Positions 4,000-58,037 of a stretch of 64,000 nt of DNA are shown here, piece by piece. This stretch comes from a virus. How positions within the stretch are numbered: position 1 is the stretch's first letter; each line of letters begins with the position of its first letter. The stretch lies in IMG/VR virus record IMGVR_UViG_3300024259_000010, positions 62,001 through 126,000 of that record, one strand, 5' to 3'. A program made the position numbers and the translations under genes. The notes under the pieces were generated by a model. That model ran no database searches, was not told where the DNA came from, and saw only the letters and a list, made by a program, of their open reading frames with translations.

Positions 4000-5283
4000 A
4001 TGAACCCAGCATTAGCAGCAGAAGTTGCAAATAAAGTTGCGCAAGAGGGTAAAAAACATGGAAAAATAAGTGAAAACTTATCTATGTTCTTTATTAGATT
4101 GATGAATCTAGACGGTGAGAACTTCAAATCACTTACTGGTATTTCAAAACAAGTACAGGTATCAAGCATGGCTTACATCGAAGATAGTCTTGTAAACACC
4201 GAAATCGCAGTTCCTCTAATGGGCACTCTAAACCAGATTTATCTTGGTTATGTATTAACTGCATTAAATATTTATAACTCTATCGGTCGCTCTAAGACAC
4301 TACGTGAAGTAGTAGGTCGTGTAGCAAATGAAGATATCTCATTACATATCTCTGAAGAGAATTTGATCGATCAACATTTTGGTAAGGCTAATGTTTCTAC
4401 TGAAGGACATGATGCTGCTAAGATCTATAACATTGAAGATGCTGTTAAGCATTTAGCTACTGGTCGTCTTATTGAATTTGAGTTCAATCTTAATTCTATA
4501 CAGATGTCTGAATTCGGAGGCGGTGGAAAAGATACAACTGTAGCAACGGATGTATCAGATAATTCTAGAGATACACGTTTTGAAAAAGATACAGATGCAA
4601 ATGGTAATGTTATAAGAGGCGATAATATGCATGAAGCCGGTGGTACTCTTAAAGAAAAAGGTGATACTACGAAAACTACTATTAAGTCACTACCAGGAGT
4701 TGTTAAAGTTCCTCTGTATGTTTCAGTCAAACCTGTGTTGTTACCTGAGTCAGTTGCAAAAGCTATCTTTAAGCTTAACTTCCCTATGTCTCTTAAGAGA
4801 CGTTGGATGCAAGTTAAGACACGTGAGATTAGTTTCTTCAAAGATTTCTTATTGTCATTAGACCTTATTAATCTTCACAAGAAAGCATTGCGTGCTGATA
4901 AGAACAATGTACTTTCTCGTTTCTATAACGACAAAGCTAAAAAAGACAGAATGCGTATTAAGTCTGCCATCTTTGGTAACCAGAAAAATAATCTGGCTAG
5001 TTCTATGATTATCATTTCTAAAGAGACATTTGATACTGTTGCAAAAGAAGCTAAACTTAACTTTGCTAATCCTAACGATCGTCAGAAGTTCTTCAATGAA
5101 TCATATTCTATGATGCTTGTTGTTGTTGACGAAATGTATGAGATGTGTGACATCTATTACAATGGTATTACCCAACCTAGTGAGATGCCTTACAAGGCTA
5201 TCAAGCAAGGGAATACTAAGTCCGGAGTTGACATGACTGAAATCATGAAGACTATTGCTAAGGGCTCTGCTCCTAGATTCTAA
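4000..5283 (+). CDS. Probable virion protein, unrecognised
   Basis: This 427-residue protein follows the ribosome site AAAAAAGGAGTAAAAA and a TTTATGTATA late-type promoter motif. The N-terminus is helical (MNPALAAEVANKVAQEGKKH). A middle section around residues 165-245 is Gly/Asp/Thr-rich and probably a disordered loop, and the C-terminal half is again helical and Lys-rich. There is no signal peptide or membrane segment. It is the first of three closely spaced plus-strand genes (4000, 5308, 6289), so it probably forms one late operon with them. I cannot assign a family. A head or neck structural role is an inference from the promoter type and neighbours. Confidence 0.5.
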   Translation: MNPALAAEVANKVAQEGKKHGKISENLSMFFIRLMNLDGENFKSLTGISKQVQVSSMAYIEDSLVNTEIAVPLMGTLNQIYLGYVLTALNIYNSIGRSKTLREVVGRVANEDISLHISEENLIDQHFGKANVSTEGHDAAKIYNIEDAVKHLATGRLIEFEFNLNSIQMSEFGGGGKDTTVATDVSDNSRDTRFEKDTDANGNVIRGDNMHEAGGTLKEKGDTTKTTIKSLPGVVKVPLYVSVKPVLLPESVAKAIFKLNFPMSLKRRWMQVKTREISFFKDFLLSLDLINLHKKALRADKNNVLSRFYNDKAKKDRMRIKSAIFGNQKNNLASSMIIISKETFDTVAKEAKLNFANPNDRQKFFNESYSMMLVVVDEMYEMCDIYYNGITQPSEMPYKAIKQGNTKSGVDMTEIMKTIAKGSAPRF

Positions 5284-7489: not shown

Positions 7490-8404
7490 ATGGAATTAAA
7501 TGATATGATGGATATGTCCATATTAATGGAATGTTCTAGAATTAATGAAGAAATTACCACAGGGTGTGAAGAACTCGATAGCCTCTGTGTAAAAGCAGAT
7601 ACTGTTAAAGGTTTCCTAGAAGAGATTCCGAAATTCGGAACTTCATCTGAACGTCTTAAAGAAATTCATGCGCACTTCACTGATAACAATATGGAGATTG
7701 GACTTTCTCTAAACAAACAAGCTTTCCTTGCTAATGCTACTATTGCATATGAAGAAAAACTTCATAATACGATTATGATGGCAATTAAAAAGATTTTAGA
7801 AAAGTTGAAAGAACTTATTAAAAACATTATTAGAATGAATCTAATTCTTGCTAATAAATTGAAAACTGAAACACGTTATGGTGTCATTGCTAATTTGAGA
7901 AAATATCCTGCTAATACTTTTAAAGGAGCTATTGTTCCTTTCTATAAGAAAGCTACATTGAATCCAGCCTTACAGACAATGAAAGGTATTGATTTCAATA
8001 AGATGGGGTCTAATGATCAATTACAGAATGCTTTACAACCATTACAGGTAAAAACATTTGATACCCTAGGATGGGTTATCAATGGTAATGTTATTTCTAA
8101 AGCACCTAGAAAAGAATTGTCTACAACCATGGTTGAACTTGGTTGGGCTATGGATGATCTCAATAGACTAGCTAATGACACTATTGGTTTATTGACTACT
8201 CCGTTTATTGATGGTAGAAGTGTTATCAAGAAACTTGAAGTTGAAGCCAAGTCTGTTAAAGGTACCGATGAAGCTATTAAGCTTCGTAATAAAATTAAGA
8301 ATATTAAAAGAACTACAAACTTACTACAGGATGTTTCTACCAGTATTGCGTGGTCTATCATTCTTATAATCAATAAGCTAAAAGCAGATTATAAGGGAGT
8401 ATAA
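7490..8404 (+). CDS. Helical protein, possible internal head protein
   Basis: This 304-residue protein starts behind TTTTTTGGAGATTTT. It is almost wholly helical. Residues around 85-130 form an amphipathic Lys/Leu/Ile-rich segment (MAIKKILEKLKELIKNIIR) that resembles the basic helical stretch in the protein at 31760-32647. The chain then ends in further helices, with no catalytic motif. It lies 2 nt upstream of the metallopeptidase-like gene at 8407, so the two are likely co-translated. A structural or DNA-associated head role is a guess from this resemblance. I do not recognise the family. Confidence 0.4.
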   Translation: MELNDMMDMSILMECSRINEEITTGCEELDSLCVKADTVKGFLEEIPKFGTSSERLKEIHAHFTDNNMEIGLSLNKQAFLANATIAYEEKLHNTIMMAIKKILEKLKELIKNIIRMNLILANKLKTETRYGVIANLRKYPANTFKGAIVPFYKKATLNPALQTMKGIDFNKMGSNDQLQNALQPLQVKTFDTLGWVINGNVISKAPRKELSTTMVELGWAMDDLNRLANDTIGLLTTPFIDGRSVIKKLEVEAKSVKGTDEAIKLRNKIKNIKRTTNLLQDVSTSIAWSIILIINKLKADYKGV

Positions 8405-8406
8405 TC

Positions 8407-9942
8407 ATGTCCTTTTTTCCTGGTTTAAATATCGATCTAGAACATGTTGCATATAAAGGATTAACTGCATCAAAATTAGCTAATGAATTAATGGCTTTTT
8501 TTCAAGAGTTTATTGATATAAGAGACAAGGGTCTTAAAGACGGTATTCCACAGGAAACTGTTATTAAAGAAGTTCGTACTAAGTTTACTAGCTTAACGAA
8601 TACTCTTAGATTCAGTAGGATTCTTAGAGAACATACTGGTGTTGATTATGATCTTATGTACAGCGTTAAGAGAATGGGTGGTACCTTTGCAACACAGATA
8701 AGATTCCAACCGGAATTCATCAAAGATACTAGAGACAACTTTGTCCTAGATAATTCTAAAGATGGAACTGGTAGAACTATACAATCTAAAGTAGCTGAGT
8801 TTCATAAAGCATTTGATCGTAAAGAAGGTAAGTTAGATAGATATGCTGTTCAAAATATCCTATCTGATAAATGTGTTATGTGGTTTGATGTTGACTGTGC
8901 ATTCTTTATAAACTTATATCATTCTAAATTTGAAAATCTTGCGGCTTCTGAAATAACTGCGATTGTATTACATGAGGTAGGTCATACTGTATCTGCTGCT
9001 GAGTATTTAAGTATATTCCATAATACAATTATAGACTTTGCTAAACCAGTTGAAGTTAATATAAGTAGTATAGAACAAGCTAAGGTTGAAGTAGCGGCTG
9101 TAAAGAAAGAACTTGCTTTTGCTAAGAGACATGGACATGATAAGAAATCTGTAGATGTATTTGAGAAAGTGATATCTAATTTAGATGACGCCTTTGAGAA
9201 AGATTATATCAAACAGAGGAATATCTGGTTCTTCTTATTAATTGTACCACTTACATTGTTCTTTATTAAACGTAATATTAAAATATGGACTATCAATAAC
9301 ATATGTTCTGAATCCATCGATGATCTTATTAGAAAAAATCCTAAGAAGAAGAGCTCTGATTTAAAGAGAACTTTAAATGATTATTCTAATATTGAATATC
9401 GTGCAGATGCTTATGTATCTATGCATGGATTAGGACCATCACTTATTGTAGCATTATCAAAAGTAACTGATGCTTGTATGGCATCTGGTTATAAAAATAA
9501 CTTAGCTAATCCTGATAATAACTTAATTATATATAACGTACATATGTATCTCACTTCATTATTATCCGGTGTTACTGGTGGTAATAGAGGGACATATGGA
9601 TCAGCGTCAAATAGAATGAAGAATACTAAACGGATTATGCTCGATGCTATGCGTGCTGATGATATACCTAAAGATGTTACTGCTAATATGCTTAAAGAGT
9701 ATGAGAAATTCCTCAAGTTAGAAGATTTCTATAAACGGAAATTATCTAGAACTGTTGAACAGAACCATAGACTATTTAATTTCTTCCATAGATTAAGTTC
9801 AATGAAAGATCTTATTAGTTTTGTATCTAAAGGTAAGATGGATAAAGATTACGAGTTCATACTTTCTTCTGCTAAAAAACTTATATCGAATGATTTGATA
9901 TATTTACAAAAGCGTGTTGAACAACAAGCTAATAATAAATAA
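8407..9942 (+). CDS. M48-like membrane zinc metallopeptidase
   Basis: This 511-residue protein carries the zinc motif HEVGH at residues 189-193 and a downstream ExxxD signature, EYRAD at 330-334. This is the arrangement of M48 (HtpX/Ste24-like) peptidases, where the two His and the later Glu bind zinc and the first Glu is catalytic. Between them lies a hydrophobic segment (WFFLLIVPLTLFFI, about residues 274-287) that is probably a membrane helix. The region before HEVGH (FFINLYHSKF) and the following helix are also family-like. The start is behind AGGGAGTATAATC, 2 nt after gene 7490. The substrate is unknown. Head maturation, cleavage of a host membrane protein or release of an anchored phage protein are all open. 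The zinc site is clear by eye; the M48 family call is an inference. Confidence 0.65.
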   Translation: MSFFPGLNIDLEHVAYKGLTASKLANELMAFFQEFIDIRDKGLKDGIPQETVIKEVRTKFTSLTNTLRFSRILREHTGVDYDLMYSVKRMGGTFATQIRFQPEFIKDTRDNFVLDNSKDGTGRTIQSKVAEFHKAFDRKEGKLDRYAVQNILSDKCVMWFDVDCAFFINLYHSKFENLAASEITAIVLHEVGHTVSAAEYLSIFHNTIIDFAKPVEVNISSIEQAKVEVAAVKKELAFAKRHGHDKKSVDVFEKVISNLDDAFEKDYIKQRNIWFFLLIVPLTLFFIKRNIKIWTINNICSESIDDLIRKNPKKKSSDLKRTLNDYSNIEYRADAYVSMHGLGPSLIVALSKVTDACMASGYKNNLANPDNNLIIYNVHMYLTSLLSGVTGGNRGTYGSASNRMKNTKRIMLDAMRADDIPKDVTANMLKEYEKFLKLEDFYKRKLSRTVEQNHRLFNFFHRLSSMKDLISFVSKGKMDKDYEFILSSAKKLISNDLIYLQKRVEQQANNK

Positions 9943-44406: not shown

Positions 44407-46986
44407 TTATTCATAAATTATTCTACCCCACTTTGAGTTTATTCTAATGTCATTAATATATTTACCAAATGTATCTACCGGATCATGTAACACAGCTTTA
44501 TATAAAACATTATTAGCAACTCCTTCAGTTATTGATATAACTGATATCCGAGATTCATCGTCTACATAAGCGGATGCTCCACTACGATCCTGTTGATATG
44601 TTGGATTAACATATGATGGAGAACAATCAGTTGATCGTATATAATATTTATAATAAATGAATTTTTTTAAGTCACCATTATTATCAATTAACACCATTCT
44701 ATTAATATTATTAGATGCATCTAAAATAGGTGCTGATATACTATTCAGTACATCTATGTTGGATTCTTCAAATATACCATTATAGATATCATAAAGTCCT
44801 TTATTATAAAGGGAAATAAATGAGAAAGAATGTAATTTAACAATCTCATGTATTTCAGTATCACCAGAAATATACTCATCTACCATTTCAATATCATCAT
44901 AATCTCTAAATACAAATAATTTATATCTTCCTAGTTCAGAAGATATGATTTTATTACTATCTATAATGATCAAAGATTTACTCAGTCCACCACTGTGGTC
45001 AACATTTGGTACAGTATCTTGTACTTCAACATTTACAGGACTTCCAGTGAATACATTATCTATTAATCTAATAGATCCATCTATTAACTTTACTACTAAT
45101 CTATCTTTACTAGCACTACTATACATGTCAACAGGAGAATTTGTTAAATCCAAATAACCAGTTGCCAATATTGAATCTGCAGTATATGATACTTTAAGAA
45201 TAGTATTACTACCAGATACGATCATAGCAAACGCTGGTTCATCATATATCTTTGATACTTTAACATATGTTGCTGGTGTAGACGGTGCTGGTAAGCCACT
45301 ATCGTACCCATAGAAAAGAGCATATGTTCTAGCAGAGTATAACGATAGATATTCACCATTCCTACGATATAGATATACCTTTGTTGTAGTAATGACGATT
45401 AATTGATCATCTTCATACGAAACCAGATCTAAAATATCACCTTGTACATCTAAGAAAGATCCTAATCCTAATTCATAAAATCTGCCAATATCATTATTAC
45501 ATACATAATAAGTCCTATCTCCAAGTTGTCTACACATATAGACATTATCTATGAGACCAATATCTATCTCACCAACATTTTCCAATAACATGGAATCATT
45601 GACATTATGTTCAGAATTTTGAAAGACTAATGTTAATTTTTTATTTAGTGTAGGTACGGTATGTGATAAATTTTCTACATGATCTGGGACTGGGAACTCC
45701 TCAGAATCACCCCAGTTATCTGGAGCTTTGCTATATTGTTGTTCACCATAGTAATACATATTTCGAATACCTTGTGTATATATACGTAGTTTTAATGCAG
45801 AAGATACATCATCCAAAGCACCATTATTCATATTTATAATATTCACTTCATATCCGGTTGCTTCTACAATATCTACAGGCGCGCCTGAAAATCCTTCCCA
45901 TCCAACAAATGCAGAGAATTGAGGATGTGGAGCAATTGGCATCTCAGGTGGATAATCAGTAGACATACCAATGTTCATATCTGCAGGAAACTTTACTAAT
46001 TGCCCTCTAGTACCTGGAGCAAAGAAACGTCTTGTATGATCATTGTCTACTATGTAGACATCTGAATATGGTTCACCATACATATATTGAAGTATCTGAA
46101 CATCTGCAGTGTCTGAATCACCTTCTTTGGACACTTCACATCTTTCAAAATAACTAGGCAGTAATTGTGGTATGGTAGTACCATCAGTGTCAATAGTTGA
46201 GAAGTAGTCTGTATTCTGATAGTAATGTTCATGGTTGAACTTTAATAGTCCACCGCTTGCAATACCATCTATCTCAACATCATCCACATCCCACTCATCA
46301 TAATAACAATGTTGTTCCAATACGATCTCAACCACTGGAATATCACCATCGTCAAATTCCATAAGAGGAGAATTAGCTTTACCAAATACATAGTTAGGCG
46401 AATTATCATGTGTGAAGAATAAAGCATTGGATGTAGAGCTACCACTAATCGGTGCCATTTCCAAATGTCTAGTGTGTTTCAATACAGTGATTTTTCTTTC
46501 TGTGTTTAACTCACTCTCATGTGGAGTATTAACAGTTAAGTAATTTGTAGATGCTGAAAGTAAGTTAGCAGTAGGTTTGTCATTATTTGAAACATCTCCT
46601 ACATACATTGTAGTAAAGAATATATTCTGAGAATAATCTACAATTACTTTGGCTGGATCAGTAGTGGTGTTCACAATTTGAGTTGCAGCACCAGATGGAT
46701 ATATAATAACATCATCTGTATTATCTGCATTAAACGTATCACCCTCTAATGTATTACTGGATTGAGCACCAATGAATTTTCTAAGATATGGTTTAGTACT
46801 CCCCTCAGTATATAGCGTGGCGTTCATTGACATATCACACAGACAAAAATCTTTTAATGCACTCAAACCGTATTCTGTAATAAGTGCCATGAATGGTTCT
46901 TGTGTTCCGAAATCAGCAACTTCTCCAACAAGCTTACCTACTCGCACAGAAGCACCTATATTAAACATAGGTATTTGTTTATACAT
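44407..46986 (-). CDS. Tail fibre-type protein with propeller-like repeats
   Basis: This 859-residue protein starts behind CAGGAGATTTGAATT. Near the N-terminus it has LITEYGLSALKDFCLCDM (about 37-54), similar in place and form to FITESGLEKIREDWF in the 49162 product, which suggests a shared virion-docking module. From about residue 480 it shows beta blades typical of propellers (QLIVITTTKVYLYRRNGEYL; RLVVKLIDGSIRLIDNVF). A late-type promoter motif precedes it at 47018. Host recognition or tail decoration is likely. Confidence 0.55.
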   Translation of the reverse strand: MYKQIPMFNIGASVRVGKLVGEVADFGTQEPFMALITEYGLSALKDFCLCDMSMNATLYTEGSTKPYLRKFIGAQSSNTLEGDTFNADNTDDVIIYPSGAATQIVNTTTDPAKVIVDYSQNIFFTTMYVGDVSNNDKPTANLLSASTNYLTVNTPHESELNTERKITVLKHTRHLEMAPISGSSTSNALFFTHDNSPNYVFGKANSPLMEFDDGDIPVVEIVLEQHCYYDEWDVDDVEIDGIASGGLLKFNHEHYYQNTDYFSTIDTDGTTIPQLLPSYFERCEVSKEGDSDTADVQILQYMYGEPYSDVYIVDNDHTRRFFAPGTRGQLVKFPADMNIGMSTDYPPEMPIAPHPQFSAFVGWEGFSGAPVDIVEATGYEVNIINMNNGALDDVSSALKLRIYTQGIRNMYYYGEQQYSKAPDNWGDSEEFPVPDHVENLSHTVPTLNKKLTLVFQNSEHNVNDSMLLENVGEIDIGLIDNVYMCRQLGDRTYYVCNNDIGRFYELGLGSFLDVQGDILDLVSYEDDQLIVITTTKVYLYRRNGEYLSLYSARTYALFYGYDSGLPAPSTPATYVKVSKIYDEPAFAMIVSGSNTILKVSYTADSILATGYLDLTNSPVDMYSSASKDRLVVKLIDGSIRLIDNVFTGSPVNVEVQDTVPNVDHSGGLSKSLIIIDSNKIISSELGRYKLFVFRDYDDIEMVDEYISGDTEIHEIVKLHSFSFISLYNKGLYDIYNGIFEESNIDVLNSISAPILDASNNINRMVLIDNNGDLKKFIYYKYYIRSTDCSPSYVNPTYQQDRSGASAYVDDESRISVISITEGVANNVLYKAVLHDPVDTFGKYINDIRINSKWGRIIYE

Positions 46987-47017
46987 AATTCAAATCTCCT
47001 GTTAGTTAATTAAATTC

Positions 47018-47030
47018 TATACATAAAATG
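47018..47030 (-). promoter_or_regulatory. Late-type promoter motif TTTATGTATA (minus)
   Basis: The minus strand reads CATTTTATGTATA, ending 32 nt before the start at 46986. It is identical to 23496-23508. Confidence 0.5.
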
Positions 47031-47064
47031 GGGGATATCATTATTTTAGAATAAAGTAATAAGA

Positions 47065-47096
47065 CTAGTATGGTGTCCAATTGGACACCATACTAG
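47065..47096. terminator. Perfect 32-nt palindrome, terminator-like
   Basis: CTAGTATGGTGTCCAA and its complement abut with no spacer, so the hairpin has an AATT turn. It lies 17 nt after the stop of the 47113 gene on the minus strand. T-runs are weak on that side. Confidence 0.65.
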
Positions 47097-47112
47097 CTAT
47101 ATTTATATTTGT

Positions 47113-49092
47113 TTATCCTTGAGCACTAATAGTATCTTTATCACCATCAATATATCGCTGGAGATACATATTCTCTCTTTCACAATTGTCAACTAAATCT
47201 TTATCATAAGAATAGTTATATTCAGGTATAGAAAAATCAGTACCACATACTTCATTTAAATATACGAGATTATCAGATGGTTTCCACAATGGAACAAATG
47301 TAATATTTGGTGCATTATATAATAAATATCTACATATACGTGATTGTAATAATTTATTATATGATAGATAGTCTTCACTTATTGATCCACAAAATGTTCT
47401 AAACTGATTTTTTAATCGACCTTCTAATATAGCATTATAAGAAGGAGAATTTATCACATTATGTAGATCTTTCATATGCATTCGTTTATGCAAATGATCA
47501 CTCAAGTACATTTTATTAAATCGGTATATAACAACATCTTCCGGTTTATGTAATAAAATAAAGAATTTGTAATCTTCTATAAATTTAGGCAACCACCTAT
47601 CTCTATAGTAGAATACTCCATTAGTCACATTACGCCCTTCTAATTTTTTTACACGATTCCATAAAGTATCTCTGTTTTTATAACCATCACGATTGAACAT
47701 AATAGTACTAATAACCGCTTTTTCATTTTTATAAATTTGGTACCTTTTACTAACAAGTTCATTTTCAATGGGTTTAATAGTTTCATTAATACCTTTTCCA
47801 GATACATGGTAAAATGTATCCATATGATATATAGATTCATGTTCCATTCGTTCAGCTACAATAGTCATGTCTTTCAATCTACTGACAGCTGATTCTTTAT
47901 CAACTTCTACTGATACCGGTACATATTTTTTAACTTTATCATATACATAATCAACTATATCTTCATATGAATTAGTAGACGATACTACAAGTTTGTCGTA
48001 ATCACATACGAAATAGTTATTTTCTGATGCACCCACGGAACAGGCTCTTCGATTCATACCAGGTTCACGTCTCCTAGAGAAAGCATATAGAACATTGCAT
48101 TGTATCATGTGCTTAAAATCTATACACGTATCTACTGACTTTAATACACGAACAGCTTCATCATCTGAATATGTTAAAGGCGTAGGATCAGATTCATGCT
48201 TTATAGTTCTAACTTTTTTATCTGGTGAAAATAATCCATATAAAACATTAACTAATATATCTCCTCCTGAATCTTTATCACCGGCTTGAATTATCAGCAA
48301 AAAATCTTTCACTTTATAATTCACATTTCCATAATACTTAATATTCTTGATAGTTGATCCCCAGAATCCATGGTCGAACATTGCTCGCCCTTTACCTTCT
48401 TTAGATATTAATGTTTTATTCTCGGTTGGGTTAAAATAACCAGCTAATGCACCATAGCCAGATTGTATAGTAATCAAGTTCTTTGCTTTATATAGATAGT
48501 AGAAATCTCTATCCGGTGATATAGATGATCGTAATGTAACACTATGTCCTAGTTTGGTAAATGCTATGATCAACTTATCCATAGTATCAATATCAGCTTG
48601 TAACCGGTCTTTAGAAAACGATTTTGCCGTGGGGTAATGTAATCCTATAACAATAGTTACTTTTTTTAGATTGATATCACGTAACTTATGTTTTATCAAT
48701 CTCATGTAATTCTTAAAATCATCTTTCACTGTTACTAATTGATCGCTGAGACGTAATGCTATAACAACCTCATCATCTTCAGGTACATCATAATCCTTGC
48801 AATGATCATTTAAAATTTCAACAAATTTTTCTTCAGAATATAATTCTTTATTATCAATACACCAGTTTAAATATTTGTACATGAATGTGTCTTCATGTTT
48901 TTGATCATTGAGAATATTCCATTCAGCGGTATTGTTTCTCTTATACGCATCTGATAGTCTATAAGCTGTTCTATCTGTATTTATAAGACGTATGTCACAT
49001 ATATCTTTAAATCTAGGATGTTCCATATCTAGATATTCAATAACATCACCCACAGATCCACAATCATCTAAATTATAACAAAAATCACTCAT
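47113..49092 (-). CDS. Possible glycosyltransferase-type protein, two domains
   Basis: This 659-residue protein starts behind AAAAAAGGAATAAGTAATT. Residues about 105-215 resemble the fucosyltransferase/NodZ-like fold: VVIALRLSDQLVTVKDDFKN (a D-x-R/S-L-x-D type box), VTIVIGLHY, and DFYYLYKAKNLITIQSGYGA, which looks like the acceptor-site helix before a Ser/Gly motif. A second region (about 250-400) and a basic C-terminal third (about 440-659, with many Tyr/Arg) are unrecognised. It lies between two tail fibre-like genes, so a role in modifying or binding surface sugar is plausible. The call is low confidence. Confidence 0.35.
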   Translation of the reverse strand: MSDFCYNLDDCGSVGDVIEYLDMEHPRFKDICDIRLINTDRTAYRLSDAYKRNNTAEWNILNDQKHEDTFMYKYLNWCIDNKELYSEEKFVEILNDHCKDYDVPEDDEVVIALRLSDQLVTVKDDFKNYMRLIKHKLRDINLKKVTIVIGLHYPTAKSFSKDRLQADIDTMDKLIIAFTKLGHSVTLRSSISPDRDFYYLYKAKNLITIQSGYGALAGYFNPTENKTLISKEGKGRAMFDHGFWGSTIKNIKYYGNVNYKVKDFLLIIQAGDKDSGGDILVNVLYGLFSPDKKVRTIKHESDPTPLTYSDDEAVRVLKSVDTCIDFKHMIQCNVLYAFSRRREPGMNRRACSVGASENNYFVCDYDKLVVSSTNSYEDIVDYVYDKVKKYVPVSVEVDKESAVSRLKDMTIVAERMEHESIYHMDTFYHVSGKGINETIKPIENELVSKRYQIYKNEKAVISTIMFNRDGYKNRDTLWNRVKKLEGRNVTNGVFYYRDRWLPKFIEDYKFFILLHKPEDVVIYRFNKMYLSDHLHKRMHMKDLHNVINSPSYNAILEGRLKNQFRTFCGSISEDYLSYNKLLQSRICRYLLYNAPNITFVPLWKPSDNLVYLNEVCGTDFSIPEYNYSYDKDLVDNCERENMYLQRYIDGDKDTISAQG

Positions 49093-49120
49093 AATTACTT
49101 ATTCCTTTTTTAAAGAAAAA

Positions 49121-49152
49121 ATACATAGTAGGGTTTTACCCCCACTATGTAT
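49121..49152 (-). terminator. Terminator with embedded TATG motif
   Basis: ATACATAGT-A-GGG pairs with CCCACTATGTAT (one bulge) and is followed on the minus strand by a T-run. Its distal arm contains TATGTAT 32 nt before the start at 49092, so the stop of one unit and the promoter of the next may overlap. Confidence 0.6.
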
Positions 49153-49161
49153 TGATTTAAC

Positions 49162-52100
49162 CTACCCGCGATTCCATATATTCTCAATAACAATATTGCT
49201 CAATATACTATCGGCGACTGGTTCAGGAGTATTTAAAACAAATGCCCATGAAACAGCTTCAACGTAGTTATCTGCGATAGGGATAATCATACCAGTATGG
49301 AAATTATCCATATTGTTAAATACAATTGATCCTACTACCTTAGATTTTTCAACACTATTCAATGTCCGTGCCGTATGATAAAATATTTTATCAACAGCCT
49401 TACCAGCATATACATATACATTATCACTGATAACACCTATTACTTTAATTGCAAAAGAAGATGCCAGATTATAGGAATCTGATCTTACACCAAATTCATG
49501 ATCTGTGATAATAAGTCTACCATTACCATCCCTCATACATAATTCATAACCATTGTTAATAAGTTCTCTATAACCATAAGTGTTACCACGTTCAATTGTA
49601 GCTGTTCCAATAGGGTCGTCCCAGTTAATACTAGAGATGTCAATGTTATCAGATCTATAACCAAGCTCACTATATGCAACACTGAGTCTATCACCTAATA
49701 GAGCAGATGATATATTAGTTACATTAGCACTTACATTATCACATAAATGTAATGGAGCATCTAATGTTGAAAATGATATAGCATCACATAGACAAGAGAT
49801 AATGGATAACTGATTGGTAATTGCATATAATCTAGTACCATCGTGTGCAAGTCTAGGTATTGTTAATAAGATATCATCTCTAACTACATTTACATTTGCA
49901 GTACCTTCTATTTCAAGTTCACCAACAGTGTCTTCCAAATCCATAGTATCATTAACAGTTGAATATACTTCAAGGGTTAACGAATCTTGATCAGTAGCAT
50001 GGTTATTATAACCTCGTGAAACTACAAAACTATCAGTTCCAGGAATTGTACAGAATGTAGTCCACGGTTGAGATGTTCCATCTATAGAGTGCAATATGTC
50101 TATAGTACCAGCATCATATGACACCAGGTATCGCCATGTATCAGTTGCTACAACAAACTTAAATGTATCATTATCAGTTTCGTAAACTATAGCTATATCT
50201 AGAACAGTAGTAGCACCAGTTTCGGGAGTGTAATCCATACCAGGTACTTTAAATCTATTAGAAGAAACATTATCTCCAGATATATTTACAATTGCTGCTA
50301 CATTGTTTGGTTCTGATAACAGATTAGCTTCAGTCCATGATATAAATTCAACAAATCCATCATCCTGCATTACTGCTGAGATTGTATCTGTAAATTTATA
50401 GAATCTAACAGCTTTAGATACAACACTGAGTTCCTTAGCTGCATTATGGAATGATGCTAAGTTGGTAGATATCTGTGTGGAGTACTCATGATCAACATAA
50501 CGCATAGGACTTGCTGTATTGGCACTATCAAATAATACAGATGTGGTTGTATTCAATTTACAGAATGCATCCAATCTAGATAAGATAGTTCCTTTTTCCA
50601 ATTTGTCCAATGTTAAGTTGAAATTATGAATAACACCAGATGGATATTCGATAAATCCTACATTATGTAGTTCGATAGCAGTAGTGCCAGAACTAACTAC
50701 AACTGTTTGTTTCCAAAGTAGTTCTGTATCAGTAACTTGGAAAAGTGTTACAACACCATTATCCTCAACTGCTACAAATCCTGGATTCAAAGCCTCATAG
50801 TCAATACTATTTAACAGTACCATAGAAGAGATAGCAGACGTTGGCGTATTAGATAATAATCGATTATCATCAATATAAGTAAACGTAGCTCCACCTTCCA
50901 GTAGTAACATAACTGTTTGAGAATTATCTGAAGCAACCAAATAGGTATTAACTCCAAGTGATACCACTTTCGATAATTCACCAATAGGTTTAGATGTTGT
51001 ATATGGATCTAAATCAGAAGTTGTGTCTGCTGCACCACTAAGGATATTCCATTTCGTTATATCATATGTTCCACTGATAATAACAATATTGTCTTCATCG
51101 ATTTTATCAAAATCAATTGCAACGGGACTACCTGCGGTTGCTAGATAATTTACTGTATTAAAAGCCGGTGGGTATAGAGTAAATACCCCAGTTGCATGAT
51201 CTATGTTGTAAGCGATTATATTACCGGAAACAAGAACTAAGCATACACCATTATCAGCAGTATGTCCAGTAGGTTCAAAATAAAGTATCTTTTCAATATC
51301 TGGACCAGTGCTAAGCTCGGTATCTAATAGGACAATATTACCATTAGCAACACTGTATGATTTTAGATCATTGCCAGATCCAGTAACATACATCGTATCA
51401 GTCACCCGTGTCATATCTTTAACAACATCTGTAGTAACTAAGGTGGCTTTATCTTTTACTTCATAGATGTTAGAATTATTAGCTTCGAGATCACGTGTCT
51501 TATTAGATACGATAAGGCTTAACCCAGTGTATCTAGAAAACTTTCCTTCAAGGATTGTATTCTCAACAGTAGGTGGAATTGTGACACCAGTAAGAGGATT
51601 GATATATGAATAATAACCTTCTTTGAACTCTCTATTATGCACAGCACATGCAGTTTTGATAGTCCCATTGTAACCACTAATAGTACTAGAGATACCATCA
51701 ATTGGATCGCATGATATTTTTCTAACCAATGTTACTTTAACATAAGGTGCTTCACCATTCTGGAAGGTCAAAGTAACATTACGTCTACCGAACAATGTAC
51801 TGTATGAACCACTATCGCAATCACCAACCACTGATTGTCCATCAATAGTAAGATCTGGAGCAATTTGACTATCATCAAGTGTGTTGGTCCAACCGATCTC
51901 AGTAAAAGTAATCGGTGCAGTTACAGGATCGAAGAACACACTTCTTGTATTAGTGATAGTGACCATTTCATTAGATGGGTCTAATGACTTCTTATTGAAG
52001 ATACCATCCCCACCAGTATCGTAATTACTTGAAACTAATTTAGGGTTTTCAAGTTTTTCAAAATACTCCTCCGCTATCCAACCATTACCATGAAACTCCG

Positions 52101-52494
52101 CAGTAGACCCTGTAGCATAAAATACATAACTACCACCACCACTAGCACCAGCGTTGTAACCAGTTAGTTGAATAGTCTGGTGATCTTCTGTTAACAATAC
52201 ATAGTTACCATCCTTTGTACCATCTGGAGGATTTCCAGAAGGAGTGTAGTTAGTAAGAGTTACAAATGCTTCACCTGCATTTTTAGAAATAGTTACTGGG
52301 TTAGGTGCAAGTGTTTCACCAGTACCCAACATAACGTAATTTGTCATGTTAGCAAACCAGTCTTCACGTATTTTCTCTAAGCCCGATTCTGTGATAAAGT
52401 TATGATCTTCTTCTGTTATCCAGGTGACTTTACCATTGACATGTTTGCCAACTTGAAAGATTACCCCAATGTCTCTTGAATTTTTAATATTCAT
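49162..52494 (-). CDS. Large tail fibre-type protein, propeller-like
   Basis: This 1110-residue protein starts behind AATAAAGGAAGTTTAAT. The N-terminus has HNFITESGLEKIREDWFANM (about residues 27-46), the docking-like module shared with the 44407 product, and SGGGSYVFYATG near 115. The rest is a long series of beta blades with Val/Thr/Asp/Gly (NIVLLDTELSTGPDIEKILY; GVVTLFQVTDTELLWKQT), suggesting one or more beta-propellers. It lies downstream of the radical SAM gene behind its own late-type motif (52524). Receptor binding is an inference. Confidence 0.55.
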   Translation of the reverse strand: MNIKNSRDIGVIFQVGKHVNGKVTWITEEDHNFITESGLEKIREDWFANMTNYVMLGTGETLAPNPVTISKNAGEAFVTLTNYTPSGNPPDGTKDGNYVLLTEDHQTIQLTGYNAGASGGGSYVFYATGSTAEFHGNGWIAEEYFEKLENPKLVSSNYDTGGDGIFNKKSLDPSNEMVTITNTRSVFFDPVTAPITFTEIGWTNTLDDSQIAPDLTIDGQSVVGDCDSGSYSTLFGRRNVTLTFQNGEAPYVKVTLVRKISCDPIDGISSTISGYNGTIKTACAVHNREFKEGYYSYINPLTGVTIPPTVENTILEGKFSRYTGLSLIVSNKTRDLEANNSNIYEVKDKATLVTTDVVKDMTRVTDTMYVTGSGNDLKSYSVANGNIVLLDTELSTGPDIEKILYFEPTGHTADNGVCLVLVSGNIIAYNIDHATGVFTLYPPAFNTVNYLATAGSPVAIDFDKIDEDNIVIISGTYDITKWNILSGAADTTSDLDPYTTSKPIGELSKVVSLGVNTYLVASDNSQTVMLLLEGGATFTYIDDNRLLSNTPTSAISSMVLLNSIDYEALNPGFVAVEDNGVVTLFQVTDTELLWKQTVVVSSGTTAIELHNVGFIEYPSGVIHNFNLTLDKLEKGTILSRLDAFCKLNTTTSVLFDSANTASPMRYVDHEYSTQISTNLASFHNAAKELSVVSKAVRFYKFTDTISAVMQDDGFVEFISWTEANLLSEPNNVAAIVNISGDNVSSNRFKVPGMDYTPETGATTVLDIAIVYETDNDTFKFVVATDTWRYLVSYDAGTIDILHSIDGTSQPWTTFCTIPGTDSFVVSRGYNNHATDQDSLTLEVYSTVNDTMDLEDTVGELEIEGTANVNVVRDDILLTIPRLAHDGTRLYAITNQLSIISCLCDAISFSTLDAPLHLCDNVSANVTNISSALLGDRLSVAYSELGYRSDNIDISSINWDDPIGTATIERGNTYGYRELINNGYELCMRDGNGRLIITDHEFGVRSDSYNLASSFAIKVIGVISDNVYVYAGKAVDKIFYHTARTLNSVEKSKVVGSIVFNNMDNFHTGMIIPIADNYVEAVSWAFVLNTPEPVADSILSNIVIENIWNRG

Positions 52495-52570: not shown

Positions 52571-52606
52571 CATACATAGAGTGGGTATATACCCACTCTA
52601 TGTATG
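52571..52606 (-). terminator. Terminator of radical SAM gene
   Basis: CATACATAGAGTGGGT and its perfect complement form a 16-bp stem on an ATAT loop, 12 nt after the stop of the 52618 gene. Confidence 0.8.
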
Positions 52607-52617
52607 ATATTTTAGTT

Positions 52618-53982
52618 TTATTTATCTTTGTTCTTATAGCGTTCTGGTACAGGCTTATTTATAAGTTTGTACAAATGATCTCTATCTAAATCTGTCACTA
52701 ATCTCATAGCAGTTTTCATGCGTAATTTATTACCCACGCATTTCATTTCAACATTATCATCAACATCATTTGTTTCAGAATGAGTTTTATTATGTTGTGG
52801 ACATGTTCCAGCACATACACCTCGTATATCACAATCTAAACAATTTGGATTCCAACCACTTCCGGTTGTTAACCACGGTGCACGTAGTTTAGGATCGATA
52901 CCAGTTTCAGCATCACCGATTTTACAATCTGTTACACATTGACATGCATGTATTTCACCATTGAATCCAATAGTTATATAATTTCTACCAGCACCACATG
53001 CCATCATTTTAGGTCGTGGTGTTAAAAAATTCCTAAGGTAATTATTTGTTAAATCAGGCCACTTGATAGATTTATCTTTATGTGTTTTACTCAAGAACCA
53101 GTCTACAGCTATATCTAATTGTTGTTCTAAATTAGAAGACCACTCTTTAAGTTGTTCTGGTGTATACCCAGGGATAATTGCTTCTCTTAAGTGAAATGTG
53201 ACACCAAGACCATTCTTGAGAAGGTTATTAAAGAATATTAACTTATCGCGCATGATAAGTGGTCCACCTTGCCCATAGTCCCCAGTACAACTCCATTGTA
53301 TCCTTCTTATTAATCTAGGGTGTGTCTTTTTGAGTCTATACATCATATCAAAAAGTTTATCATATGATCCTTTGCCATTACCAAATATCCTAGTCCTATC
53401 ATGAATCTCTTTAGGACCATCACATGATACTTTAATAGATATACCATTATCATTGAACCAGTCAGCGATTATTTCATCGCCTTCCCAATCTTTAATATGT
53501 TTAGATATTTTATCCTCAAGCAATAACCCATTTGTTGTCACATGGAATTTAGTCTTATCATATGTAGATTTGATATACTGTTGGACTTCATATACCGTTT
53601 TAAAGTTTACAAGAGCCTCACCCCCCATATATGTAATGGAAATACTTTTATACTTATCTGCTGGCAATTGTTTATCAAAGAAATATTTAATTTCCTCAAA
53701 ATTCATATTATTAGTATTAATTGCATCGTTTTCTATAAGATTATCCATAGCATAGCAATACGTACATCTCATGTTACATAATTTAGTTGTAGTTATAGCA
53801 ACAGACATTGTCTCGTCACTAATTTTTGTAGGTTTTGTATAGTTTGGTATATCTCTAGTAGGCTTAGTATGAGTTACTATATTCTCTGCATTTTTTTGAT
53901 TAGCTGCAATCATATAACTGTGATTTAGATTGTTCATTACAATTTTTTTATCACTTCCCATGACATCATATATTTTCAACAT
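52618..53982 (-). CDS. Radical SAM/SPASM peptide-modifying enzyme
   Basis: This 454-residue protein starts behind TAAGGAGTAAAAAACTAAT. The radical SAM site is C69-x3-C73-x2-C76 (TTKLCNMRCTYCYAMDN), followed by TYMGGEALVNF, the GGE box that contacts SAM. The C-terminus has a full SPASM pattern for two further iron-sulfur clusters: CGAGRN, GEIHACQC, CLDCDIRGVCAGTC and a final MKC. This is the layout of anaerobic sulfatase-maturating enzymes and of RiPP enzymes that make thioether or carbon crosslinks. No sulfatase is present, but the gene directly upstream encodes a virion protein with a Cys-rich tail, a candidate substrate. No separate leader-binding domain is visible in the first 55 residues. 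Iron-sulfur assembly would rely on the host. Confidence 0.9.
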   Translation of the reverse strand: MLKIYDVMGSDKKIVMNNLNHSYMIAANQKNAENIVTHTKPTRDIPNYTKPTKISDETMSVAITTTKLCNMRCTYCYAMDNLIENDAINTNNMNFEEIKYFFDKQLPADKYKSISITYMGGEALVNFKTVYEVQQYIKSTYDKTKFHVTTNGLLLEDKISKHIKDWEGDEIIADWFNDNGISIKVSCDGPKEIHDRTRIFGNGKGSYDKLFDMMYRLKKTHPRLIRRIQWSCTGDYGQGGPLIMRDKLIFFNNLLKNGLGVTFHLREAIIPGYTPEQLKEWSSNLEQQLDIAVDWFLSKTHKDKSIKWPDLTNNYLRNFLTPRPKMMACGAGRNYITIGFNGEIHACQCVTDCKIGDAETGIDPKLRAPWLTTGSGWNPNCLDCDIRGVCAGTCPQHNKTHSETNDVDDNVEMKCVGNKLRMKTAMRLVTDLDRDHLYKLINKPVPERYKNKDK

Positions 53983-54021
53983 ATTAGTTTTTTACTCCTT
54001 ATTACTTATTATTAAAAATCC

Positions 54022-54041
54022 TGGGGGTATTACTACCCCCA
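54022..54041 (-). terminator. Short stem-loop between virion gene and radical SAM gene
   Basis: TGGGGGTA pairs with TACCCCCA over a TTAC loop. It is a short stem with a moderate T-run, so partial read-through into the radical SAM gene is likely, giving less enzyme than substrate. Confidence 0.55.
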
Positions 54042-54050
54042 TTTATTTAG

Positions 54051-57000
54051 TTATTCTCCACCTGAACCCTGATTTTCGGAACCGTGACAACCACCAGTAC
54101 AAGTTTGATCCTCTGGATCACATTGTGCTTGATCCTCATTGTCATCACATGCAAGATCGGCACATCCTTGATCTTCACCTGGATCACATGTTGTCTCATT
54201 TTCAGATTGACAACCTTGTTCTTCCTCTGCCCCACTACAACCTTGTTCTTCAGCAGGATCGCAATCGAAGTCCATAGCCTCTTCGTCATCACATGTTGTA
54301 ACTTTGGTATCACCACAATCTACAGTCAGTCCTGCATCAGTACAAGTAACAGTTGGTGCATTTTCAGAGCAACCAGCTATTTCATCACACGTACAATCTA
54401 ACCCAATCTTTTCACCATTATTTCCACATCCACCACTAGGAATAGGTTCTTCACACAAATCATTACCCTCGTAGCAATCCCCAGGTCCTGCATTATATTC
54501 ATAACAAATTGGGCAACTGATTTCAACGTTCAAACATATTGGAGATGATATAGTATCATTAACACATAGAACATCTTCTAAAGTACATGTAACACCTGAT
54601 ACACAATCAACATCCATATAATCTTCACCTGCATCACATTGAACACCGTAAATAATCTGTAACGATTTTTCTAATGACCCTGAAGGTATATTGTACTCAT
54701 CACCACATAAAGAACCATCGATCTCCATATTGATATCTAACGTTGGTCTATTTACATAACCATCGGAACATAGATTACCTTCTACTACAGATGTAGTATT
54801 AAACAAATCATATTCCTTAACATTAGTGTTTATCAAACTAGCTTCCACAAGTTTTGTATATAATTCAGTTGAATCAGCAGTTCCCTTAATAAGGTTCCCA
54901 ACAATAATTTTTAATACAGATTGTACAGTACTTCCAGGTATTTCATATGTAATAGTTTCTTGGTAGTTAGCTGGTAATAAAGCTGCACTTACTAGCTTAG
55001 TATAAAGATCAAGTTGGTCTTTAGAACTACGTAAAATAGCACCTACAATAATATCGATAGATGATTCAGTAACGGATGGCGCTATGCTGTACCCATCTGT
55101 ACACATATTACCTTCTATTGAATATTCTAACTCAATTGCTTCTTTAACACTATAACTATCAGTACATAACTTACCATCTTCAAGAGCTGGTATTATATAC
55201 GTAGCATCTTCAGAAGTAGGACCATTTAAATGTGAACTAACAAGTTTCCAATATATCTCATTGGAACCAGTAATACTTTTAATAATATTACCCATTTCAA
55301 TTTTGTTAAATAATTTGGTCACACTAGCTAGATCATACTCTACCTGTCCATCAAGATTACTCTTATAGTGATGATATATAATAAACGGAGGAGGAGGAGG
55401 ATCTTCACGTGGTACTACAATAAAGGTAGGATCGTCATCTATTGGTACAATAGGATCAGCAGGTTCAGTTCCTAGAATAGGACCAATTTTAGGTGCAATG
55501 AATTTAATACTAGCATCCGAAGGTATAGCAAGTTCAAACTGTGCAGTATCATCGTAGATAATAGAACCAAGGATTTCATGATCCTTTACTAGTGAACTAG
55601 TATCAAAGAACGTGATATCATAAGTACACATCTGTACGAACAACTGTCGCATGAGCTTTTGTTCTTCTGCAGTTAGATCACCAAACTGTACATAGTCGGA
55701 TTCTTTGATTGGTAACATCTGTACTAGAATCTCTTCCATCAAATCACCAAAGGCAATCTTAGGATTGTCAGCAGCATTCAATGAATCAGTTAAGTTCCGC
55801 AAAGAATCATTTGTATCAAACCATTCTTCATATGTAGTGATAGAACCAAATGTGTCATACTCAATATCAACAATCCCTATTTCTAGTAACTGGTAATATA
55901 AATAATCAAATGACCTATTATATACTTTATCTGAATTGGTCCTGACCTTAATAAAGTCAGATAGCTTATCGCCATATGTTGTATCCATCCAAGAAACAAG
56001 CTCTTCTTTACTAGAGAAGTTATGACCCTGTTGTACAAGTGTACGAGTAGTCAAATCAGGTGATGGATTATTCTTAGCATCGATATTCGTTAGACGAATA
56101 ACTTCATCTGCATCTGGAGTAGCCCCATCTGGTAAACCTAAAAGATATCCCTGTAAGTTTGGTTGGAAGATATAATCAATATTAATAGTAGATACATCAT
56201 TACTTGCACCATGAATCTCCAATAGAAATTCTTTTGTGATTTCAGCAAGGTTTAACTTAAACGGTCTTCTGACTGAGAACTTAGTAGGTATTTTAGATGG
56301 ACCTGGATATGTAACGTATGCTCCAATAAAGTTATTAGCATTCTGATTTGTAATCAAAACGCGAGACTTATCGAAGATAACATCCTTATCAATAAAGTTA
56401 TCAATATTATCAGGTGTTAATAATACTGTAGGTGCTTCAGCACTATATAAACAATATTGGAACAATGCAAATGCTTCTTTTATAGTTAATGGTAAACCAC
56501 CAGAGACACGATCTGATCGAACATTAATAAGATTATCATAATCCACAGTACATGATGTATTCTGGTTAGATAACATATATGTGAATGACTCTAAAGCATA
56601 CTTGATATATTCAAGCCCGATCTGATAACTAACATTAGTTCTAACAAACTGTACAAGTTTAGTTGGAAGTGTTGAGTTCTCAATTCTTGATAATTTATAA
56701 TCTTGTTCATCTAATAGATCAGGTCCAATATCAGGTTCAATACCATCATTAACTTCCTGAGCATAAGTAGTTGCTAACGTTTGTTGCATTGCTTCGATAT
56801 TACCAATATTAATATAGTCTTTAGTAATATCTTTAGATAAAACTTGTGATGTAGGTACACATCGAGATTCCGAACCAGATGTTTCAATAGCAACATATTT
56901 AGATACGAGAGTGATGTTATAATCTTTAAGTAGATTATTAGCAAGGATCTCAAGAGTTTCAATAGTACCTTTATGATTAAGAAGATATCTAATATTCTTA

Positions 57001-58037
57001 TACATAAACATCTGTTGTTTATCGTTCAATACATCGCGGTAATCACCAATACCTTTAGATTTCAGATATGCCCAAATAAGATCAGTGTGAACTGATGCTG
57101 TATGCATATTATCAATACGCTGTTGTAATACTACATTTGGTAACAATGTCCACAAGATGGTCCAATAAATAATATGACCATACTTTTCAAACTCCATGTA
57201 TTCAGGTACATTCCATCTTTCATTGAATACGATTAAGAATGATTGTAGTGCTTGTACAATAGAACCAAGTTCACTGTACTCTAAGAACTGAGGCTGTAGT
57301 TCAGTACCCTTTGCTGAATAACCAATTAATTCAAAATCATTAACTTGTATTAGATTGTTTTCCATATCAAAACAAATCTTACTATTGTTATATGCTTTAG
57401 TGTATTCATCAAACTTGTCTATATTAGAAATGTAAGTTTCCCATGCAGGAAGATTAGTCTGCTTAAGAATCAGCTCTTCATCTGCATCCAATACATCCAT
57501 ATGGATATGTTCTAATATTGTAACTGGGTAGAAAATATTCTTAATCAAATCTGCTTGATCAGGATAACGTTCGAGTAGATCAGTAAAACCATCTCTGTTG
57601 TAATAATAGAAATAACTAGTCTTACGCAATCTAGAGTCATTTAAAGTACTCTTAGTAAGGGGTATAGTACCATTTAGTCTGTGGGTTTCACCGGCTTCAA
57701 CACTACCACCTAGATCAGTATAATCATCAATAGTGAGCAAGTCTTGCACACGCATTACCATAGGTGTGTTGTTCAATCCAGCTGGATCTTCAGCATGGTT
57801 ATATGAAGCAAGTTCTGGATATAACAAATCACCATCTACTGTAAGATTGGCAATATCCGCAGTATTAAAAAATTCACCCTGTAAATTAATAACATAGGGA
57901 TTATGAGCATCTTTAATCTCATCTATTGTCAATGCTTCTAATTTATTTTTATAGTACTGTTTCATATACGGATTGTATACAGAAATAGTCTGCAGAAATC
58001 CATAAATTTCTTGAATAAAGATAGACATATTGTTCAT
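54051..58037 (-). CDS. Large baseplate/tail protein with cysteine-rich C-terminal tail
   Basis: This 1328-residue protein starts behind AATGAAAGGTTTTAATT. The first 900 residues are a large folded region with very few cysteines, typical of a jumbo-phage baseplate protein. A Pro run (REDPPPPPF, about 868-876) leads to repeats: three related helical units (EIYWKLVSSHL, DLYTKLVSAAL, ELYTKLVEASL) and four GxxC-T/S/G-D-x-Y motifs (KLCTDSY, NMCTDGY, NLCSDGY, SLCGDEY). From Cys1134 to the end, 195 residues hold 25 Cys, with C-x3-E/D at 1134, 1249, 1259, 1267, 1284, 1297 and 1306. The radical SAM/SPASM gene is next downstream. I propose, without proof, that the tail is crosslinked by that enzyme. Disulfides or metal binding are alternatives. 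Confidence 0.7.
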   Translation of the reverse strand: MNNMSIFIQEIYGFLQTISVYNPYMKQYYKNKLEALTIDEIKDAHNPYVINLQGEFFNTADIANLTVDGDLLYPELASYNHAEDPAGLNNTPMVMRVQDLLTIDDYTDLGGSVEAGETHRLNGTIPLTKSTLNDSRLRKTSYFYYYNRDGFTDLLERYPDQADLIKNIFYPVTILEHIHMDVLDADEELILKQTNLPAWETYISNIDKFDEYTKAYNNSKICFDMENNLIQVNDFELIGYSAKGTELQPQFLEYSELGSIVQALQSFLIVFNERWNVPEYMEFEKYGHIIYWTILWTLLPNVVLQQRIDNMHTASVHTDLIWAYLKSKGIGDYRDVLNDKQQMFMYKNIRYLLNHKGTIETLEILANNLLKDYNITLVSKYVAIETSGSESRCVPTSQVLSKDITKDYINIGNIEAMQQTLATTYAQEVNDGIEPDIGPDLLDEQDYKLSRIENSTLPTKLVQFVRTNVSYQIGLEYIKYALESFTYMLSNQNTSCTVDYDNLINVRSDRVSGGLPLTIKEAFALFQYCLYSAEAPTVLLTPDNIDNFIDKDVIFDKSRVLITNQNANNFIGAYVTYPGPSKIPTKFSVRRPFKLNLAEITKEFLLEIHGASNDVSTINIDYIFQPNLQGYLLGLPDGATPDADEVIRLTNIDAKNNPSPDLTTRTLVQQGHNFSSKEELVSWMDTTYGDKLSDFIKVRTNSDKVYNRSFDYLYYQLLEIGIVDIEYDTFGSITTYEEWFDTNDSLRNLTDSLNAADNPKIAFGDLMEEILVQMLPIKESDYVQFGDLTAEEQKLMRQLFVQMCTYDITFFDTSSLVKDHEILGSIIYDDTAQFELAIPSDASIKFIAPKIGPILGTEPADPIVPIDDDPTFIVVPREDPPPPPFIIYHHYKSNLDGQVEYDLASVTKLFNKIEMGNIIKSITGSNEIYWKLVSSHLNGPTSEDATYIIPALEDGKLCTDSYSVKEAIELEYSIEGNMCTDGYSIAPSVTESSIDIIVGAILRSSKDQLDLYTKLVSAALLPANYQETITYEIPGSTVQSVLKIIVGNLIKGTADSTELYTKLVEASLINTNVKEYDLFNTTSVVEGNLCSDGYVNRPTLDINMEIDGSLCGDEYNIPSGSLEKSLQIIYGVQCDAGEDYMDVDCVSGVTCTLEDVLCVNDTISSPICLNVEISCPICYEYNAGPGDCYEGNDLCEEPIPSGGCGNNGEKIGLDCTCDEIAGCSENAPTVTCTDAGLTVDCGDTKVTTCDDEEAMDFDCDPAEEQGCSGAEEEQGCQSENETTCDPGEDQGCADLACDDNEDQAQCDPEDQTCTGGCHGSENQGSGGE
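54054..54640 (-). repeat. Cys-x3-Glu/Asp repeat tail of the 1328-residue protein
   Basis: The last 70 residues consist of units such as CDPAEEQG, CSGAEEEQG, CDPGEDQG and CDDNEDQAQ, a degenerate protein repeat of 8-9 residues. It extends upstream to Cys1134 with more irregular Cys spacing. It has no match by eye to EGF, laminin or knottin spacing. Confidence 0.75.

Follow-up and report, generated by a model that had tools for sequence, protein, structure and literature searches.

Judging from the sequences, a phiKZ-like phage encodes a peptide maturase of its own, a SPASM-type radical S-adenosylmethionine (SAM) enzyme that probably crosslinks the cysteine-rich tail of the neighbouring PHIKZ128-type tail protein in a manner resembling the ribosomally synthesised and post-translationally modified peptides (RiPPs). 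Both genes lie in a stretch of 64,000 nucleotides (the window), which comprises bases 62001–126000 of the 235,833-base virus record IMGVR_UViG_3300024259_000010. The two open reading frames (ORFs), 52618–53982 for the enzyme and 54051–58037 for the virion protein, are both on the minus strand and 68 bases apart, with the virion-protein gene upstream. The phiKZ-like character of the window is seen in the genes beside this pair, which encode a tail sheath (phrog_3242), a tail tube (Phage_TTP_14) and a portal-type protein (phrog_3004) with PDB matches to PHIKZ129 and the Goslar portal.

We propose that the phage supplies its own maturase for the tail protein: in the infected cell, the SPASM enzyme would modify the Cys-rich C-terminus of the protein encoded next to it. 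The enzyme most likely relies on SAM-derived radicals together with its auxiliary iron-sulfur clusters; Cys sulfur would be joined to carbons of nearby residues, leaving the virion with a tail domain that is locked by covalent bonds other than disulfides. Modification of the tail by the enzyme is most likely on the evidence of association, which is repeated in several enzyme lineages kept apart by the tree; from it we infer the tail as substrate, a thioether as product and a role in stiffening or adhesion. The maturase class is a known one, and what would be new is the kind of substrate and its setting. The features concerned are:

52618..53982, minus strand: radical SAM/SPASM enzyme, 454 amino acids (PF04055, TIGR04085, AlphaFold model; NF047865 is the best NCBIfam model, below its cut-off)
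53755..53778, minus strand: radical SAM motif C69-N-M-R-C73-T-Y-C76 (sequence)
52738..52998, minus strand: SPASM region C329...C415, seven auxiliary-cluster Cys at PapB spacing (TIGR04085; PapB Cys from PMC10470005)
52936..52938, minus strand: Cys349, aligned with the essential Arg372 of PapB (alignment; PMC9413430)
54051..58037, minus strand: PHIKZ128-type tail protein with an added C-terminal extension, 1328 amino acids (PDB sequence matches; phrog_3222)
56358..57665, minus strand: conserved core of the tail protein, about residues 125–560 (comparison with relatives)
54639..55457, minus strand: extension of the tail protein with internal repeats, residues about 861–1133 (past the end of most relatives' proteins)
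54054..54638, minus strand: Cys-rich acidic tail, residues 1134–1328, proposed substrate (25 Cys, 50 Asp/Glu, 2 Lys/Arg)

The enzyme carries a complete set of cluster cysteines

An earlier reading of this DNA, made from its letters alone (the sequence-only reading), had described a complete radical SAM site and SPASM cysteines in one gene, and both are present. The enzyme matches PF04055 (44.4 bits, cut-off 29.5) and the SPASM model TIGR04085 (36.4 bits, cut-off 27); Pfam's own SPASM model was not reported in a Pfam search. C69, C73 and C76 form the CxxxCxxC radical SAM motif, and C329, C347, C381, C384, C390, C394 and C415 are the SPASM cysteines. All ten Cys of the three clusters are thus in place at nearly the spacing of PapB, where they are C119/123/126, C352, C370, C408, C411, C417, C421 and C440 (PMC10470005).

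An AlphaFold model built from 47 sequences (predicted local distance difference test, pLDDT, 81; predicted template modelling score, pTM, 0.84) has CteB (5wgg/5why) as its closest solved fold, with a TM score of about 0.7. In the tree the enzyme sits on a long branch without a supported clade, its nearest row being a bona fide PapB (24% identity). It falls outside the other phage SPASM clades, so the pairing of such enzymes with Cys-rich proteins looks convergent. A single-sequence search of viral_contigs with the enzyme found no relative, and the record contains no second radical SAM gene.

The Cys-rich tail extends a conserved tail protein

The upstream gene, placed at the right coordinates and described as encoding a 1328-residue virion-type protein by the sequence-only reading, specifies a PHIKZ128-type tail protein. 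Its PDB sequence matches are 36za_sR, 11lx_Bh (Goslar) and 9xqs_C (PHIKZ128), with E values of 2e-14 to 9e-8, and it matches phrog_3222 with an E value of 9e-36. The similarity to the solved Goslar and PHIKZ128 virion proteins spans residues about 125–560. The Goslar homologue is present as six chains in an entry that also holds sheath subunits, and it is therefore a tail component. The baseplate location named by the sequence-only reading is a putative one, drawn from solved homologues that are tail proteins in entries with sheath.

The window protein is longer than its relatives by about 470 residues, which comprise a repeat stretch followed by the Cys tail. It has 34 Cys in total, five before residue 900, four in residues 958–1111 and 25 in residues 1134–1317, in agreement with the earlier counts of 25 in the last 195 residues and about five in the first 900. 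At the genome rate of 1.17%, 2.3 Cys would be expected in the last 195 residues (binomial 2e-18). Residues 1134–1328 also contain 50 Asp/Glu (26%) and 2 Lys/Arg. The densest 150-residue stretch of the tail holds 21 Cys, compared with 10 in the next-best ORF of the 235.8-kb record. A frameshift or wrong-frame origin of the tail is ruled out by codon scores, which are 0.49 in the genuine coding frame versus -0.27 or less in the other five.

The Cys density is thus far beyond chance; the C-x3-E/D motif alone is not clearly so. All seven such sites listed by the sequence-only reading are right, but the true count is 11, those at 1151, 1168, 1215 and 1317 having been missed. Shuffled tails give 6.3 on average (p = 0.021, for one of ten spacings tested), and the distal 88 residues have 7 versus 3.4 (p = 0.017). 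An acidic residue follows within 7 residues downstream in 23 of the 25 tail Cys, and shuffles give 21.7. A single-sequence search of viral_contigs with the tail protein returned no relative, and neither did a degenerate DNA pattern for the CDPxExQGC unit give a match in that collection. Similarity of the tail to the CP220 Cys protein described below was tested and not found.

Enzyme and Cys tail are absent together from the relatives checked

We fetched 80 viral loci with relatives of the tail protein and sought the enzyme in 50 of their records, many of which are fragments. Among the ORFs identifiable in the 80 loci there was no Cys tail (maximum 5 Cys per 150 residues), and most relatives' proteins end near residue 700–860. 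No enzyme relative was found in 49 of the 50 records, the exception being one distant, shorter radical SAM protein. The closest relative (L018) is a 1211-residue protein whose long extension has hardly any Cys, and its 82-kb record showed no enzyme. Enzyme and Cys tail are therefore jointly present here and jointly absent from the relatives checked. Homologues that keep the enzyme and lack a Cys tail, named by the sequence-only reading as evidence that would speak against its idea, were not found among PHIKZ128-type phages.

Additions of other kinds occur near the same place. The PHIKZ128-type protein of L018 (L018:7977-11612) has a Cys-free extension that consists of about a dozen SATDxEILSxL-like repeats. 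In another phiKZ-like phage, a 246-residue protein encoded after p318 (L019:10916-11656) contains WSACSAPCG, which resembles a thrombospondin type 1 repeat and is another Cys-containing add-on.

SPASM enzymes recur beside Cys-rich proteins in other phages

The sequence-only reading had suggested searching phage genomes for co-occurrence of the SPASM gene with Cys-rich tails, and an association with Cys-repeat, virion-like proteins was found. Phage SPASM loci were gathered by enzyme similarity only and clustered at 50% identity; a pairing was scored when a protein encoded on the same strand within 6 kb reached or exceeded 12 Cys per 150 residues, thresholds that were picked after examples had been seen. 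Of the SPASM clusters, 11 of 18 had a Cys-rich neighbour; of the clusters of non-SPASM phage radical SAM enzymes, 0 of 12 did (Fisher p = 6e-4). Thresholds of 10 and 14 Cys give p of about 0.002, and with L147 counted by hand the fraction becomes 12/18.

The proteins beside these enzymes include L202:11485-12198 (33 Cys, CTGxC), L211:4628-5161 (27 Cys, CNCNFCT, in a gene run that includes a head-tail adaptor) and L147:8762-9907 (54 Cys), with further examples at L214:4967-5485, L207 and L204, and S74-chaperone-ended proteins at L099 and L132. In a fibre-like protein (L101:5352-7058) the last 150 residues include 28 Cys, and the protein scores above the cut-off of TIGR04114, a curated radical-SAM-target repeat model; the adjoining enzyme has TIGR04115, the maturase of TIGR04114, as its best model. 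In a Vallitalea genome (L269:5881-8892), the genes for a SPASM enzyme and for a 332-residue protein containing 56 Cys come downstream of genes that, as read from their sequences, resemble a distal tail protein and a tail hub. Because of this position, the bacterial pair is probably prophage tail equipment.

Two cultured phage groups show the same association. SPN3US-like phages, such as Salmonella phage SPN3US, have two Cys-rich ORFs of about 130 residues with 20–23 Cys, located between a virion structural protein and a radical SAM gene pair. The Cys proteins and the enzyme occur in 61 phage records each, in the same genera (matched by counts, not record by record, with three bacterial contigs set aside). 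In Campylobacter phage CP220, the baseplate genes have close by them the genes for gp136, an enzyme of SPASM type, and gp140, a protein of 534 residues with 35 Cys and CDCNYCT repeats. The Cys protein and the SPASM gene of this type are found in exactly the same 15 records (15/15).

We lean, by a narrow balance, towards a broader reading of these data, in which unrelated tailed-phage lineages would have independently recruited SPASM maturases to place covalent Cys crosslinks in their own virion proteins. Each lineage would use its own Cys code, be it acidic and irregular, CxxxC, CNCNYCT or S74-linked, and the phiKZ-like tail protein of the window would exemplify the acidic one.

Several side observations concern these loci. 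The conserved Cys ORFs of 127–143 residues at L308:4100-4492 and 4503-4907 (SPN3US; about 143413–144220 of NC_027402.1, minus strand) and at L102:8003-8386 and 8398-8796 (phiEaH2) belong to phrog_6085. Many deposited SPN3US-like records omit them or annotate another frame; the N-terminal part of these proteins has at its end a motif of tail-fibre type around CGGTCSW. The CDCNYCT heptads of CP220 gp140 (L309:2200-3804) overlap the intragenic 21-bp repeat of the genome paper. The authors of that paper mentioned the radical SAM genes apart from the repeat and interpreted them as metabolic (PMC2853527). The annotation of the gp140 counterpart in CP21 and WX1, N-acetylneuraminate pyruvate lyase, seems mistaken. 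Runs of two to four radical SAM genes, several with SPASM, are present at L214, L204, L190-L199, L147 and L220; in such phage (or bacterial) clusters several enzymes may modify one Cys protein. Several radical SAM genes have also been noted in Ralstonia phage RP12 (PMC5468394). Proteins of 240–265 residues with 15–19 Cys lie next to three radical SAM genes at L190:5648-6373, L184:4621-5340 and L209:6123-6920; they are aromatic-rich with an irregular Cys pattern, and the L190 protein has no PHROG match.

The enzyme gene lies in a four-gene block flanked by hairpins

Two further features border the enzyme gene:

54022..54041, minus strand: terminator-like hairpin between both genes, 8-bp stem then GGATTTTTAA (sequence)
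52571..52606, no strand assigned: terminator-like hairpin past the enzyme gene, 16-bp stem (sequence)

Flanked on both sides in this way, the gene resembles a self-contained cassette. It is followed by genes for proteins of 1110, 659 and 859 residues (44407-52494, minus strand), which have no Pfam or PHROG assignment. Together these form a four-gene block, enzyme first, that separates the tail-protein gene from p318, whereas p318 comes directly after the tail-protein gene or one gene later in relatives.

Weighing the explanations

Several observations weigh against crosslinking of the tail by its neighbour. The acidic tail type is known from one phage only, and its enrichment in C-x3-[D/E] is weak. 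Six or seven of the 18 SPASM clusters are without a Cys-rich neighbour within 6 kb, as is Achromobacter phage JWF. In the enzyme 68 residues precede the first cluster Cys, compared with 118 in PapB; the model folds this N-terminus into two strands and one helix only, and a full RiPP recognition element is therefore not evident. The alignment places Cys349 where PapB has its essential Arg372. A terminator-like hairpin also separates the two genes; a shared transcript is therefore not required and separate transcription is possible, although this matters little where one product is an enzyme.

The chemistry favoured by the sequence-only reading is a narrower form of this proposal: PapB-type ranthipeptide formation, with Cys sulfur joined to the Asp beta- or Glu gamma-carbon in C-x3-D/E motifs. 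We regard it as doubtful. NF047865 (PapB) is indeed the best NCBIfam model for the enzyme, no row of the tree lies closer to it than PapB, and PapB accepts CXnD with n = 0–6 (PMC9413430). The tail has 26% Asp/Glu, 11 C-x3-[D/E] motifs and 23 of 25 Cys with a nearby acid; a real PapB cluster (L218) has the same layout of an acidic C-x3-D peptide and an enzyme. The score of 127.3 bits is, however, far under the family cut-off of 340, the tree placement is unsupported, and 23/25 is about the shuffle level. Arg372 of PapB, two residues past Cys370 of auxiliary cluster 1 (AC1), is thought to hold the carboxylate (PMC9413430, PMC10470005). Arg occupies this position in two true PapB members (L218 and L219), and Cys was found there in none of 86 other SPASM enzymes examined. 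PapB likeness alone was rejected as a predictor of Cys-Asp/Glu chemistry, because phage enzymes beside CxxxC or CNCNYCT proteins, whose repeats have no C-x3-D/E, score PapB as well or better, with PapB as their best or second-best model. Of the original proposal, modification of the tail protein gains strong support from the maturase class, the tail neighbour, the joint presence and absence and the recurrent pairing; the PapB-type Cys-Asp/Glu thioether is its doubtful part.

Alternatively, the Cys tail may mature independently of the enzyme, as an adhesive domain of the ordinary disulfide-rich or metal-binding kind; the enzyme would then act elsewhere, on another phage or host molecule such as the 1110-residue neighbour or a sugar. 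The hairpins would fit a separate cassette, and Cys349 makes the active site unlike known classes. The four-gene block is absent between tail protein and p318 in relatives, so all its genes may have arrived together, for several reasons. We nevertheless consider this explanation unlikely, since it would turn two patterns into coincidences, the lack of both features in relatives and the recurrence of the pair in other phages, and since the record holds no other Cys-dense protein. There is only a slim chance that the enzyme is a passenger metabolic gene (moron) serving host fitness, as proposed for the CP220/CPt10 radical SAM genes by Timms et al. 2010 (PMC2853527). Cassette-like hairpins would suit a moron, but the enzyme is of a SPASM peptide-maturase class rather than a metabolic one, its gene lies inside the tail module, and the link to Cys-repeat proteins is limited to SPASM-type genes.

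Implications

The crosslinks known to be made by radical SAM enzymes are in small secreted peptides and in a few enzymes; the likely substrates here are large virion parts. In a literature search that covered neither preprints nor most subscription papers, no paper was found that proposes radical SAM modification of phage virion proteins, in keeping with the sequence-only reading, which knew of no phage virion protein described as so modified. Radical SAM enzymes are also unmentioned in a large jumbo-phage survey (PMC7824862). If true, our proposal would explain the one to a dozen radical SAM genes in some phages that have so far been called metabolic, would add a route of covalent stabilisation for virus particles besides disulfides and isopeptides, and would offer a source of enzymes that crosslink the ends of large proteins.

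Comparison with known systems

The tail protein shares its conserved core with PHIKZ128 and Goslar gp35 (9xqs, 36za, 11lx), whereas the known members of that family have no Cys tail. In Goslar and PhiEaH1 the tail-protein gene is next to the portal gene.

On the enzyme side, the SCIFF thioether maturase CteB is the top structural match of the model, yet it shares 18% identity with the window enzyme and acts on a short peptide. SCIFF-type comparators have His-Gln after the AC1 Cys, and the window enzyme has Gln-Cys. The TIGR04115/TIGR04114 system likewise places a SPASM enzyme beside a dense Cys-repeat protein, and in L101, L202 and L269 the target sits in a phage or prophage setting. Its enzymes, however, form their own clade in the tree without the window enzyme, which scores 59 bits against TIGR04115 (cut-off 350) and falls outside that family. 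TIGR04114 targets are Gly/Ser/Thr-rich with Cys every 3–4 residues, in contrast to the window tail, where the spacing is mostly 7–10 and not every fourth residue.

The PapB/PapA system (freyrasin, NF047865) resembles the window pair in combining radical SAM and SPASM domains, with ten cluster Cys at matching spacing, and in an enzyme that adjoins an acidic, Cys-rich target with C-x3-D/E. PapA is a short precursor peptide, whereas the target here would be the end of a 1328-residue tail protein.

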